Source: Deltaproteobacteria bacterium
Lineage (GTDB): Bacteria > Campylobacterota_A > Desulfurellia > JAGGSF01
DNA: 9,575 bases
Direction: 5' to 3'
Assembly (NCBI GenBank): GCA_021159235.1
Contig: JAGGSF010000103.1
Span: 1 to 9,575 of the forward strand
Shown here: one piece after another, positions 1 through 3,434 of the stretch
How positions within the stretch are numbered: position 1 is the first letter of the stretch
How the letters are laid out: each line of letters starts with the position of its first letter
Notes under the pieces: generated by a model
What the model was told of the DNA's origin: nothing
The model's input: only the letters and a program-made list of their open reading frames with translations
Database searches by the model: none
Translations under genes and position numbers: made by a program

Positions 1-81
1 AAAGCCCATGAGCTGGACCCTGAGGATAGGGTAGTGCGTTTCAATCTGAAGAAGATAAAAGAACTTATGGGAAAGGGATAG
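1..81 (+). CDS. C-terminal end of a probable TPR-repeat protein (5' end outside window)
   Basis: The window opens inside a coding frame that ends at the TAG at 79-81, leaving 26 residues. The visible peptide contains A-HELDPED-VVRFNLKKIKEL, which matches the end of a tetratricopeptide repeat: the LDPED turn followed by a helix of the 'VRFNL..IKEL' kind is common in the last repeat of TPR proteins. TPR proteins are protein-protein interaction scaffolds; nothing more specific can be said from this fragment. The next gene begins at the base directly after the stop codon, so the two are almost certainly cotranscribed, and the TPR protein may belong with the Roadblock genes. The family call rests on only one partial helix pair. 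Confidence 0.5.
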   Translation, partial: KAHELDPEDRVVRFNLKKIKELMGKG

Positions 82-462
82 ATGGCTGTTTCTAAGGCTG
101 AGATTATTGATTATATCTTATCTAAGTTGTTTACAATCTGTCCTTATATTGATACAGCGGTGGTGTGTGATTACGATGGGCTTATCATGGGAAGTATGAG
201 CAGGATGCCGTTTGAAGCGGAGACTGTAGGAGCTATTTCTTCTCTGGTTTTTCATAATGCAGGCAGGGTTGTGTCTGAGCTTAAAGAGGGTAATCTGGAA
301 GATATAATTATAATAGGCGAGGATGGCTATGTATTGGTGATTAAGGTGCTGGATTTTGCTATACTCGTTGTTGCTTCCGCCGATAAGACAAAACTTATTG
401 AAAGTTACGGACCTGCTTATAAAGCGGCCATGGCTATTTCTCTACTAAAAAAGGTTGTTTGA
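82..462 (+). CDS. Roadblock/LC7 domain protein (first of two)
   Basis: A 126-residue single-domain protein. It shows the Roadblock/LC7 pattern: an N-terminal helix (about 5-18), a strand ending in the CDYDGLIMGS turn (29-38), a long Ala-rich helix (46-67), the 'LKEGNLEDIIIIGEDGYVLVIKV' strand pair (67-89), a further strand (90-100), and a C-terminal helix. Bacterial members of this family (MglB-like) form homodimers that act as GTPase-activating proteins or scaffolds for Ras-like MglA GTPases in cell polarity and motility. No MglA gene is in the window, so the partner is unknown. The ATG at 82 follows the upstream stop directly and is preceded by an AAGGGA Shine-Dalgarno-like sequence at about 73-78. 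It differs clearly from the second Roadblock protein at 886-1299, so the pair is not a recent duplication. The family call is firm; the role is inferred. Confidence 0.88.
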   Translation: MAVSKAEIIDYILSKLFTICPYIDTAVVCDYDGLIMGSMSRMPFEAETVGAISSLVFHNAGRVVSELKEGNLEDIIIIGEDGYVLVIKVLDFAILVVASADKTKLIESYGPAYKAAMAISLLKKVV

Positions 463-463
463 G

Positions 464-898
464 ATGGATATAGAGAAAGCCTTGAAAGATGAGATCGATA
501 GCATTTTTGCTTCCGATTACACGCCGGATGAAGTTGAGAAAATAATCCACAGGACACGCAGGAAGGTGTCGGGGGATGCCTTTTTAATTGTGAAGTCGGG
601 AGGGGAGACAGTATCTATTCTTCTCTCCCGGATTGATGGTGTCTATCGCATCTCTATGGAGATGACCTCTTTTTTATTGAGGGATAAAAAACTTGAAAGA
701 GGTGGAAAAATATACAGGTTGTATGAGCATTTGAGTTCTCTTTCTGAAATGCAGGAAAAATATTTGATTCTGTTTGAGACAGAGAATAAAGAGGCAAAAT
801 TTTTGATATGTGATGAACTTTTAGGGCGGACAAGCTTACCGGTAGAGTTTGAAGAAAATAATGTTACGTTTCTAATAAGGTTAAAATGCTTGTTTTAG
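464..898 (+). CDS. Small protein, probable divergent CheW-like domain
   Basis: A 144-residue cytoplasmic protein without signal peptide or membrane segment. Residues 1-36 look helical. From about 39 onward the order of strands resembles a CheW domain: a 'FLIVKSGGETVSILLSRIDG' strand pair (40-59), a 'GGKIYRLYEHLS' segment (80-91) where CheW has its 'RGxIxPVxDL' strand, then 'KYLILFET' (99-106), 'AKFLICDELLG' (111-121, compare 'xGLLVDxVLG' in CheW) and a final hydrophobic strand 'VTFLIRLKCLF' (134-144). CheW proteins link chemoreceptors to the CheA kinase. The match is by eye and the canonical Arg-Gly is reduced to Gly-Gly, so this stays a hypothesis; an unrelated small beta protein is the alternative. 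The gene sits between two Roadblock genes, one base after the first and overlapping the second by 13 bases. I chose ATG 464 over the in-frame TTG 455 because AAGG at 451-454 suits only the ATG. Confidence 0.5.
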   Translation: MDIEKALKDEIDSIFASDYTPDEVEKIIHRTRRKVSGDAFLIVKSGGETVSILLSRIDGVYRISMEMTSFLLRDKKLERGGKIYRLYEHLSSLSEMQEKYLILFETENKEAKFLICDELLGRTSLPVEFEENNVTFLIRLKCLF

Positions 899-1299
899 AT
901 CCGGAGGAATTACAGAAAATAGGTGATTGTATTAAGGAAAACCTGATTAAAGCTGCTAATGTGTCTGGTGTTCTGCTGATTGATATGGGAGGAAATGTTA
1001 TTGTTGATGCAGGTTTTAAGGATAATAATATAGATGTGGCTTCTCTGGCTGCCTTATCTGCAGCTAATTTTGCAGCAATGGCAGAAATTGCCAGATTGAT
1101 TGGAGAAACGGAGTTTTCTCTCCTCTTTCACAAGGGAAAGCAGGAGAATATCTATTTTACTAAGGCGGGCAGGTCATTTATTTTGGTTACTGTTTTTGGG
1201 AATGATATTTCCTTGGGATTAATGAGACTTAAGGTTTCCCATGTGAAAGAGGAAATTGAAAAAGAAATTGCTTCCGGAAGACTGAAAGAGGTATTTTAA
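886..1299 (+). CDS. Roadblock/LC7 domain protein (second of two)
   Basis: A 137-residue Roadblock/LC7 protein. An N-terminal helix (6-24) leads to the strand 'VSGVLLIDMGGNVIVDAG' (26-43), the long Ala-rich helix typical of the family (50-70, ASLAALSAANFAAMAEIARL), a strand pair (76-92), the strand 'RSFILVTVFG' (96-105), and 'ISLGLMRLKVSHVKEEIEKEI' as C-terminal helix. The charged 15-20 residue C-terminal extension is longer than in the first copy. As in MglB-type proteins it probably dimerises and binds a Ras-like GTPase or a scaffold; with two different paralogues side by side a heterodimer is possible. The ATG at 886 lies inside the end of the preceding gene, with TAAGG at 876-880 as ribosome binding site at a normal distance. 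Family assignment is firm, partner unknown. Confidence 0.87.
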   Translation: MLVLDPEELQKIGDCIKENLIKAANVSGVLLIDMGGNVIVDAGFKDNNIDVASLAALSAANFAAMAEIARLIGETEFSLLFHKGKQENIYFTKAGRSFILVTVFGNDISLGLMRLKVSHVKEEIEKEIASGRLKEVF

Positions 1300-1309
1300 C
1301 CCCATTTTA

Positions 1310-1338
1310 TTGATTTAGTGGTTTTCTTCTGTTAGACT
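1310..1338 (+). promoter_or_regulatory. Possible sigma-70-type promoter giving a nearly leaderless transcript
   Basis: In the only real gap of the left half, TTGATT (1310-1315) and TAGACT (1333-1338) lie exactly 17 bases apart, each matching four of six consensus positions. Transcription would start near 1345, only a few bases before the ATG at 1348. That would fit the absence of a good Shine-Dalgarno sequence before this gene. In AT-rich DNA such matches occur by chance, so this is weak. Confidence 0.25.
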
Positions 1339-1347
1339 GGATTCCAT

Positions 1348-2544
1348 ATGACTGAAAGAAAGTTTGTAAGCATAGGCAGCAAAATAACAGCGGTAAACGT
1401 TTCCATAGTGCTTATTTCTATAGTGGTGTTATTTTCTATCTCAGTGCTGGGTCTTATATATTTTAAGAATGATGCACTTAAAAGGACAGAGGGAGCACTT
1501 GAAGAGCAGATCAGAAAATCCCTGGAATGCAAAGCTGTTGCCTTAAGCACAAAGATAAGAATAGCACTAAAGGATAAGATTTCCGCAGTAGGGGTTATAG
1601 GTGAATGTTTGAAAAATAGAATGTGCATGTATGCAAGAACGAAGAATCCCTCATTCATCGAGGAAATGAAGGATAAATTCCCTTTTTTTCGCAAAAGAAT
1701 TGGAGCAAGATGTGTTGCTCTCTATACCAAAGAGGGGCTCATACTTAAATATCCCTTAGAAAAACCTATTGTTCCCATTACACCGGAAAAGATAGAAACC
1801 ACCTGTAGGTCGGAAGAAGGATGTTTTGTTGACTTTCATGTAAATGAAGATGGTGAGATATCTCACAGTGTAACTGTTCCTATTACCTGTAGAGAGAAGA
1901 TAGTAGCCATATTGTTTGTGGATTTCTATCCCGATGATATATATGCTATTCTGCAGGCAGAGCAACCCGAGGAACGTTCTGAGATCTATGCCTGGATGAT
2001 AAACAAGAAGGGAATACTTATCTTTGACCCACCGACAACTGCTCATGAATTGATAACCTTGAAGGATAACGTGGATTTATCAAATCCGAAGGAAGGGGAA
2101 GCATTAGCGAAAATTGTAAGAAATCATATTCTTAAGGGAGAAACAGGCTCTTCACGGTATATATTCAGAGGAATAGATAAGTTTGTAGGATATAGCTATA
2201 TAAAAGAGACAGGGTGGGGGATAGGCCTAACCTATCCTACAAGAGAACTCTTTGTGCCGATTAGCGACTTAAAAAAAGGTATTAACGAGCGCATTGTTGT
2301 CATCTTGGTGGTGCTCAGTTTGTTTGGTATTTTTGTTGTTTTTGTTGCGGTAGGGGTGAGTTTCTGGTTATCGAAGAGATTGGTTAAGCCTATAATAGAA
2401 AGTATAGATACGATTAACCATATTATTGAGGGAGATATTTCTCGAAGGTTGGAGACAAAGCATAATGATGAAATTGGAGAGTTAGCTGAAGCGGTGAATA
2501 GATTGATGGATTCTGTGGCTCGAAAGCTGAGGGAAAAGACTTGA
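1348..2544 (+). CDS. Membrane sensor: double-Cache-type domain plus HAMP, no output domain
   Basis: A 398-residue protein laid out like the front half of a chemoreceptor or sensor kinase. A first membrane helix (about 12-39) is followed by a 270-residue extracytoplasmic region. Its distal part (about 115-200: VALYTKEGLILKYP, ISHSVTVPIT, EKIVAILFVDFYPDD) and proximal part (about 212-300: AWMINKKGILIFDP, GYSYIKETGWGIGLTYPTREL) read as a dCache-type ligand-binding domain. A second membrane helix (315-341) leads to a HAMP domain (342-397) with 'LVKPI' and 'DEIGELAEAVNRL'. The protein then stops; no methyl-accepting, kinase, cyclase or phosphatase domain follows, and the next gene starts on the stop codon. 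Seven cysteines (61, 87, 93, 122, 153, 159, 181) all lie in the membrane-distal half of the sensor region. ATG 1348 is the first possible start after an in-frame TAG at 1333. The ligand cannot be predicted. Confidence 0.85.
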   Translation: MTERKFVSIGSKITAVNVSIVLISIVVLFSISVLGLIYFKNDALKRTEGALEEQIRKSLECKAVALSTKIRIALKDKISAVGVIGECLKNRMCMYARTKNPSFIEEMKDKFPFFRKRIGARCVALYTKEGLILKYPLEKPIVPITPEKIETTCRSEEGCFVDFHVNEDGEISHSVTVPITCREKIVAILFVDFYPDDIYAILQAEQPEERSEIYAWMINKKGILIFDPPTTAHELITLKDNVDLSNPKEGEALAKIVRNHILKGETGSSRYIFRGIDKFVGYSYIKETGWGIGLTYPTRELFVPISDLKKGINERIVVILVVLSLFGIFVVFVAVGVSFWLSKRLVKPIIESIDTINHIIEGDISRRLETKHNDEIGELAEAVNRLMDSVARKLREKT

Positions 2545-3434
2545 TTCTCAGAGCGCAGAGCATTAAGAAATCTTTCTCTGTAGGCAGGAGGAAACTTCCG
2601 GTTGTAAAGGATGTGGATATATATGTGAAAAAAGGGGAAAATGTTTCTATAGTTGGAGAATCGGGAGCGGGAAAAACAACACTTGTTCATTGTTTATCTC
2701 TTTTAGAAGAGTATGATGGGGGGAAAATCTATTTTAAAGAAAAACCGATAGACAGGAAAAATATTCATGTTTTGAGAAGTGGAGTACAGATGGTATTTCA
2801 GAATTTTTCTGCCTCTTTAGATCCGAGAATGAATATAAAGGAAGCAATGGCGGAACCGTTGAGGATAAAAAGATTTCCTCTTTCATATATAGAGGAAAGG
2901 GTAAAAGAGGTAGTAGATATTGTGCATCTTCCAAGACATGTGCTTATGAGGAAAAAGAGCGGTCTAAGCGGTGGGGAACTGCAGCGGGTGGCTATTGCAA
3001 GAGCCTTGATAAGTTCACCAGAGCTGGTAATATTTGATGAAGCTACATCGGCTCTGGATACCTCTACTCAGGCTATCATTCTCAATCTGTTGATAGATTT
3101 AAAGATGAAATTTTCGCTGAGCTATTTGTTTGTCACCCATGATCTGACTCTGGCCAACTTTATTACGGATAGAATATATGTAATGTATAGAGGGAGAATT
3201 ATAGAAGAAGCTCCTACGGAAGAGTTGTTCAGATATCCCTTACATCCCTATACCATGCTACTCAAGAAGGGGATCTTTGGATGCATGATGCAGGTTCGGG
3301 AGGGAAACAGTGAAGATGGATGTGAGTTTTATCCATTTTGTCGGTGGGCAACAAAGGAATGTGGGGAGCATCTTCCTTCTTTACAAAAGGTAAATGATAA
3401 GCATTTTGTAAGGTGTTTTCTTTATAGAAGATGA
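2541..3434 (+). CDS. ABC transporter ATP-binding protein, oligopeptide/dipeptide (OppF/DppF) type
   Basis: A 297-residue ATPase of the peptide/nickel ABC importer family. It shows Walker A GESGAGKT (39-46), Q-loop Gln87 in VFQN, signature LSGGELQ (142-148), Walker B LVIFDE (162-167), the D-loop SALD, and switch His200 in VTHD. The C-terminal oligo_HPY extension is present: '[10 protein letters not shown]' (234-243) and four cysteines (261, 267, 274, 292) in the spacing typical of OppD/DppD/OppF proteins, where they have been reported to hold an iron-sulfur cluster in some members. This protein normally works at the inner face of the membrane with a second ATPase, two permeases and a binding protein; none of these is in the window. 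The TTG start overlaps the stop of the sensor gene (TTGA), with GAGGG at 2529-2533 as ribosome binding site. Substrate is unknown; peptides are the family default. Confidence 0.9.

Follow-up and report, generated by a model that had tools for sequence, protein, structure and literature searches.

Can a membrane receptor whose chain stops at the HAMP domain, and whose gene lies among those for Roadblock proteins, pass its signal straight to a small GTPase? The question is raised by a locus in the window, i.e., the whole 9,575-nucleotide stretch of DNA analysed here. The GTP state of MglA, a Ras-like switch, depends on MglB and helper proteins; in other bacteria, the MglA/MglB pair sets cell polarity and drives pili. 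The known routes by which external signals reach MglA are mainly the Frz chemosensory system and the response regulators of Myxococcus and, in conservons, kinases. In our main reading of the locus, the MglA/MglB cycle is gated by a receptor that lacks a kinase, probably so as to control type IV pili; we put the probability of this reading at roughly 0.6.

The window is the entire contig C42 of a 1.127-Mb genome in 122 contigs, from a genus represented by three species (G000, G001, and G002) in a class sample of 25 genomes. The four open frames listed in the sequence-only reading (82-462, 464-898, 886-1299, and 1348-2544) are present and evolve as real genes, with dN/dS values of 0.10-0.30 in comparisons of the window's genome with the two sister species. 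A GTPase gene had been predicted upstream. Because the terminal 55 bases of contig C50 equal window bases 1-55, this contig is placed directly upstream of the window, and an mglA gene was found on it, about 4 kb before the window start. The window carries the 3′ half of the mglA operon, which extends beyond it. Single contigs of the two sister species hold the entire region, with MglA and the rest on one contig. The genes of the operon are as follows (coordinates beginning with L004 are on C50, the others in the window):

L004:4220-4870, forward strand, MglA GTPase
L004:4857-6017, forward strand, 386-aa coiled-coil protein
L004:6019-6516, forward strand, V4R gene, missing from both sister species
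L004:6545-7093, forward strand, 182-aa protein
L004:7103-7468, forward strand, Roadblock 1
L004:7485-7820, forward strand, 111-aa protein
L004:7790-8297 and then window 1-81 (3′ end), forward strand, DUF4388 (PATAN) plus TPR gene
82-462, forward strand, Roadblock 2, 126 aa, a diverged paralogue of Roadblock 1
464-898, forward strand, 144-aa protein found in this genus alone
886-1299, forward strand, Roadblock 3, assigned as MglB, 137 aa, with a short C-terminal tail
1348-2544, forward strand, Cache-HAMP membrane receptor without an output domain, 398 aa

The genes overlap or have a few to some tens of bases between them, and their order is kept across the three species for all operon genes save V4R. 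The grouping of the sensor with the Roadblock proteins, the GTPase, and the TPR protein, initially proposed from the window, stands: all of them stay together in the three species, and the TPR protein upstream is identified as DUF4388/PATAN plus TPR. Every cluster gene compared has a dN/dS well below 1, indicating purifying selection. Since the species are close relatives and the housekeeping genes downstream are equally syntenic in all three, synteny inside the genus proves little and cannot alone define a module. Window positions 2541-3434 encode an oligopeptide-type ABC ATPase; its gene overlaps the receptor stop codon by 4 bases and has no adjoining permease gene.

The upstream GTPase aligns with M. 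xanthus MglA (E 2.4e-55), with the P-loop GPGKSGKT and the TVPGQ motif present, and on this alignment it is assigned as a true MglA of the Myxococcus (Group 1) type. Residues R188 and K192 are basic, at positions that equal those of the M. xanthus pocket residues K181 and K185. The intrinsic arginine finger site (R53 in M. xanthus MglA) is occupied by Arg in the window's genome and by Lys in both sister species (L008:33-686 and L046:13471-14121; L008 and L047 are one and the same contig). MglA is present in about one third of the genomes sampled across bacteria; within the sampled phylum, a true MglA was found in this genus only.

Both Roadblock calls made from the window hold (PF03259, E 7.7e-11 for the 82-462 protein and 7.5e-10 for the 886-1299 protein). 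Two points go beyond the sequence-only reading: the 886-1299 product is MglB itself, and a third Roadblock gene, Roadblock 1, lies upstream. The best PDB matches of the 886-1299 protein are to M. xanthus MglB (E 7e-25), and a profile made from the genus's Roadblock 3 alone retrieves mglA-linked MglBs of other bacteria with E-values up to 1e-29; on these matches, we assign it as the MglB orthologue. The tail of this protein past the domain is 17 aa long, ends in LKEVF, and has no acidic motif, while the median tail among 70 mglA-linked MglBs, the genus's three included, is 39 aa. Examination of the tail did not reveal the acidic MglA-binding C-terminal helix in the genus's MglB. Because such a helix belongs to many MglBs but not all (PMC6785124), the assignment holds despite its absence. 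Roadblock 2 matches PDB entry 7f8m (E 1.9e-7) and is 90% identical across the three species.

The features of the receptor are as follows:

1402-1458, forward strand, transmembrane helix 1 (hydropathy)
1843-2226, forward strand, dCache_1 match, part of the outer domain (PF02743, E 6.7e-7, under the curated cut-off)
2293-2349, forward strand, transmembrane helix 2 (hydropathy)
2365-2517, forward strand, HAMP domain (E 1.4e-8, above the cut-off)

Thus, a Cache/HAMP sensor lacking an output domain, as recognized earlier from the letters alone, is indeed encoded here, with its dCache_1 match below the cut-off. The two transmembrane helices and the HAMP domain are followed by just 6 residues before the stop, and the stop point after HAMP is identical in all three species (dN/dS 0.17-0.19). 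The frame lies about 40-48 bp behind mglB on the same strand. The receptor is the sole HAMP protein found in each of the genus's three genomes.

Recurrence of this arrangement was surveyed in 140 MglA neighbourhoods outside the genus (about 2.1 Mb), which were scanned with locally built profiles. The kind of receptor proposed has two transmembrane helices and a HAMP domain no more than 20 aa from the C terminus, and is encoded on the same strand within 2 kb of mglA or mglB; the window's receptor, with two transmembrane helices, a terminal HAMP domain, and linkage to mglB, is of this kind. Output-less HAMP receptors were found in seven of the 140 loci, in five families (f140, f249, f78, f101, and f57). 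They are 244-276 aa long, extend 10-14 aa past HAMP, and are encoded on the same strand about 1 kb or less from mglA. Pfam reports HAMP in every carrier scanned (in L097 only below the cut-off) and single-Cache domains in most, and the receptors vary among loci in Cache type and gene position. In ten control genomes with MglA, two HAMP matches in frames shorter than 300 aa were found in 27.6 Mb, corresponding to about 0.15 expected in the surveyed DNA, a rough figure because the controls were selected among genomes lacking this type of receptor at the locus surveyed. Five carrier genomes were tested, and none has a HAMP match in a frame below 300 aa other than the mglAB-linked gene.

The linkage of an output-less HAMP receptor with mglAB is well supported, and the tie between such a sensor and GTPase/Roadblock genes, first suggested for this locus, recurs in other lineages. 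On the MglA tree, carriers occupy three separate positions (the window's genus; f140; and a single clade comprising f249, f78, f101, and f57), which gives three separate origins of the arrangement, the window's genus included. The same pairing in at least two unrelated bacterial lineages suggests that the receptor talks straight to the small GTPase. MglA does not need such a receptor, since only seven of 140 MglA loci have one. A search of the open-access literature on MglA with HAMP, Cache, or transmembrane sensors found no account of a HAMP receptor lacking a kinase next to mglAB; a survey of prokaryotic Ras-like GTPases describes varied neighbourhoods for Group 1 mglA, in which PATAN genes occur now and then, and mentions HAMP for conservon kinases alone (PMC4316618).

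The receptor could instead signal to a scaffold of Roadblock 1 or 2 with the PATAN/TPR and V4R proteins, with an output other than pili (for example, control of the envelope or secretion) and with MglB standing apart. Roadblock 1 occurs class-wide, in 20 of 25 genomes, also where MglA is missing; V4R and PATAN are ligand or scaffold domains; and in f140 the receptor adjoins a TPR-Roadblock gene and not mglB. However, the receptor gene is the immediate neighbour of mglB in four of the five other families as well as in the window's genus, and we consider the scaffold explanation unlikely. V4R itself is not a core part of the operon, because G000, G003, and G018 are the only genomes with it near Roadblock 1, and the two sister species lack it. 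The same distribution led us to reject V4R-Roadblock as a class-wide pair, a TRAPP-like idea (PMC2253512, PMC10933270). The single Roadblock genes of other class members were likewise rejected as orthologues of the whole module: they share Roadblock 1 alone, and MglA is absent. V4R, whose family is related to the TRAPP subunit Bet3, adjoins Roadblock 1 in two other class members (L050:7742-8218 and L052:1541-2104); in the window's genome, a single gene separates the two. Elsewhere, a cysteine-containing protein of about 345 aa is encoded beside Roadblock 1 (L049:6342-7379 and L048:7509-8555); it has no clear Pfam family and is vaguely like the operon's 182-aa protein.

We judge it quite unlikely that the receptor has no relation to the neighbouring MglA system and is carried along as a passenger or left over from a methyl-accepting protein or histidine kinase. 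Its gene is the last before an unrelated ABC ATPase gene and is set off from mglB by the gap described above, and relics would be expected in a genus that has lost chemotaxis. Yet the shared stop past HAMP under a low dN/dS, the occurrence of similar genes next to mglAB in five further families, at a frequency far exceeding background, and their being the only short-frame HAMP matches in the carrier genomes tested all argue against a passenger.

That the 464-898 protein is a CheW-like adaptor coupling the HAMP sensor to the Roadblocks, a stripped-down chemosensory link, is very improbable: its size and a strand run that looks vaguely CheW-like by eye favour the idea, but no match to CheW (PF01584) was obtained in Pfam up to E 10, none in PDB, and none by profile-profile comparison (hhalign) with CheW proteins from this class, and 7-12% of shuffled sequences equal its score against the CheW profile. 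An AF2 model shows a mixed alpha/beta fold with a pLDDT of 41 from a three-sequence alignment, too poor for judging the fold. CheW/CheA (PF01584) and MCP (PF00015) domains were not found in the genus's three genomes, while CheW is present in most class members and MCPs in those tested from larger families. The 464-898 protein is thus not detectably CheW-like, and the genus lacks CheW, CheA, and MCPs; hence, the CheW part of the sequence-only reading, and with it the chemosensory link, fails. As a side observation, these 1.1-Mb genomes combine the loss of CheW, CheA, and MCPs with a single HAMP protein, while most class relatives keep chemotaxis. CheW identity was also rejected for the C-terminal part of the 386-aa protein, which has no match in Pfam, hhalign, or PDB and a score reached by 4-6% of shuffles; its AF2 model has a pLDDT of 48 (three-sequence alignment).

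The orthologues of the 464-898 protein in the three species are about 67% identical, and no relatives were found outside the genus, including none near MglA in the 140 other loci. One orthologue (L046:9538-10053) has an in-frame tandem duplication in which SGQLPSSYQQMEHL occurs twice, and the length of the mid-region differs by species. A 28-bp DNA match of window positions 684-711 to contig C39 was dismissed as chance, since the reading frame in which it lies is unrelated.

The MglB of M. xanthus has an acidic C-terminal helix that binds a pocket of MglA, to which K181 and K185 contribute, and promotes nucleotide exchange; a Glu-rich helix of RomR can stand in for it (PMC6785124). A segment of the 464-898 protein resembles this motif:

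476-508, forward strand, KALKDEIDSIF, codons 5-15 of the 464-898 protein

A weight matrix was built from MglB tails belonging to other genera (28, non-redundant) and run against the cluster's eleven proteins; the best score among all of them was obtained for residues 5-15 of the 464-898 protein. The scores of the three orthologues were reached by 18, 0, and 0 of 4008 background segments, the window's own sequence being the weakest (18), and by 27, 6, and 2 of 2000 shuffles. Invariant residues among the orthologues make up 18 of 20 at positions 1-20 versus 83 of 124 in the remainder. Because the motif was seen before testing and eleven proteins were scanned, the match is a good lead and no more. 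The KDEIDSIF N terminus may be a detached exchange helix, replacing the one missing from the genus's MglB.

We infer the contacts, signal direction, output to pili, and action of the helix in trans as follows. The Cache domain of the receptor would bind an extracellular ligand, and HAMP would relay the change through the membrane. Because nothing follows HAMP, the partner that its end contacts would have to be a separate cytoplasmic protein, most likely MglB or another Roadblock protein. Ligand binding would then change GTP hydrolysis or exchange by MglA, with no kinase, CheA, or response regulator involved, and the 464-898 protein may provide in trans an acidic helix that enters the allosteric pocket of MglA and speeds nucleotide exchange. 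A path from HAMP to Roadblock to MglA, with the exchange helix in trans, is the proposed mechanism that fits best. Its fullest form, in which HAMP binds a Roadblock protein and the receptor drives the GTPase directly, the GAP (MglB) and exchange (464-898) functions are split, and such receptors have at least three origins, is rather doubtful as a whole.

A receptor that ends at HAMP beside mglB would be a shorter route, from receptor to GTPase regulator, with a logic like that of eukaryotic receptor-G-protein coupling. If this is true, HAMP would be shown to pass its signal to a separate protein; the system is also small enough to be tested readily. Should the 464-898 protein act in trans, the hydrolysis- and exchange-promoting roles of MglB, which are fused in Myxococcus, would be separated here.

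The output is probably type IV pili. PilB-PilT-PilC are encoded in the window's genome, PilB/PilT lie near MglA in six of 140 surveyed loci, and MglA has a known role in type IV pili (PMC4316618, PMC9481161), so pili are the likeliest output. In L097, L099, L120, L126, and L165, which belong to several families, mglAB and several Roadblock genes directly adjoin pilB and pilT.

Several known systems resemble the one proposed. Conservons (CvnA-D; PMC13343842) also encode a HAMP membrane sensor, an MglB-type Roadblock protein, and an MglA-type GTPase together. Their CvnA is, however, a histidine kinase, and CvnC is present; no match to a histidine kinase domain or to CvnC was found in our cluster, the receptor stops after HAMP, leaving no CvnA equivalent, and the MglA is of the Myxococcus type. 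The RomR/RomX exchange factor (PMC6785124) offers an example of a protein other than MglB with an acidic helix for the MglA allosteric pocket, as proposed for the 464-898 protein, which differs in having no receiver domain and in matching no known family by sequence. Frz-type chemosensory systems also provide membrane input to MglA, but the genus lacks MCP, CheA, and CheW domains.

The M. xanthus MglA/MglB module (Group 1; PMC4316618) likewise has a canonical MglA and MglB, and its MglB has further partners, as proposed here: MglC, a Roadblock paralogue that binds MglB directly (PMC7949163), and RomY, which stimulates the GAP activity of MglB (PMC9481161). M. xanthus MglB has a long acidic tail, whereas the genus's MglB is without one. 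Input in M. xanthus comes from the Frz chemosensory system via RomR; here, there are no chemosensory genes, and a kinase-free Cache-HAMP receptor is encoded in the operon. PATAN genes occur occasionally near Group 1 mglA, as in this operon. In one MglA clade (L154:2117-8438, L149:4146-9354, and L214:8454-12501), a PATAN gene precedes receptor-mglB-mglA; in L154 and L149, the preceding genes also include one resembling a histidine kinase gene and others for small proteins of no clear family, so that a larger cluster is formed.
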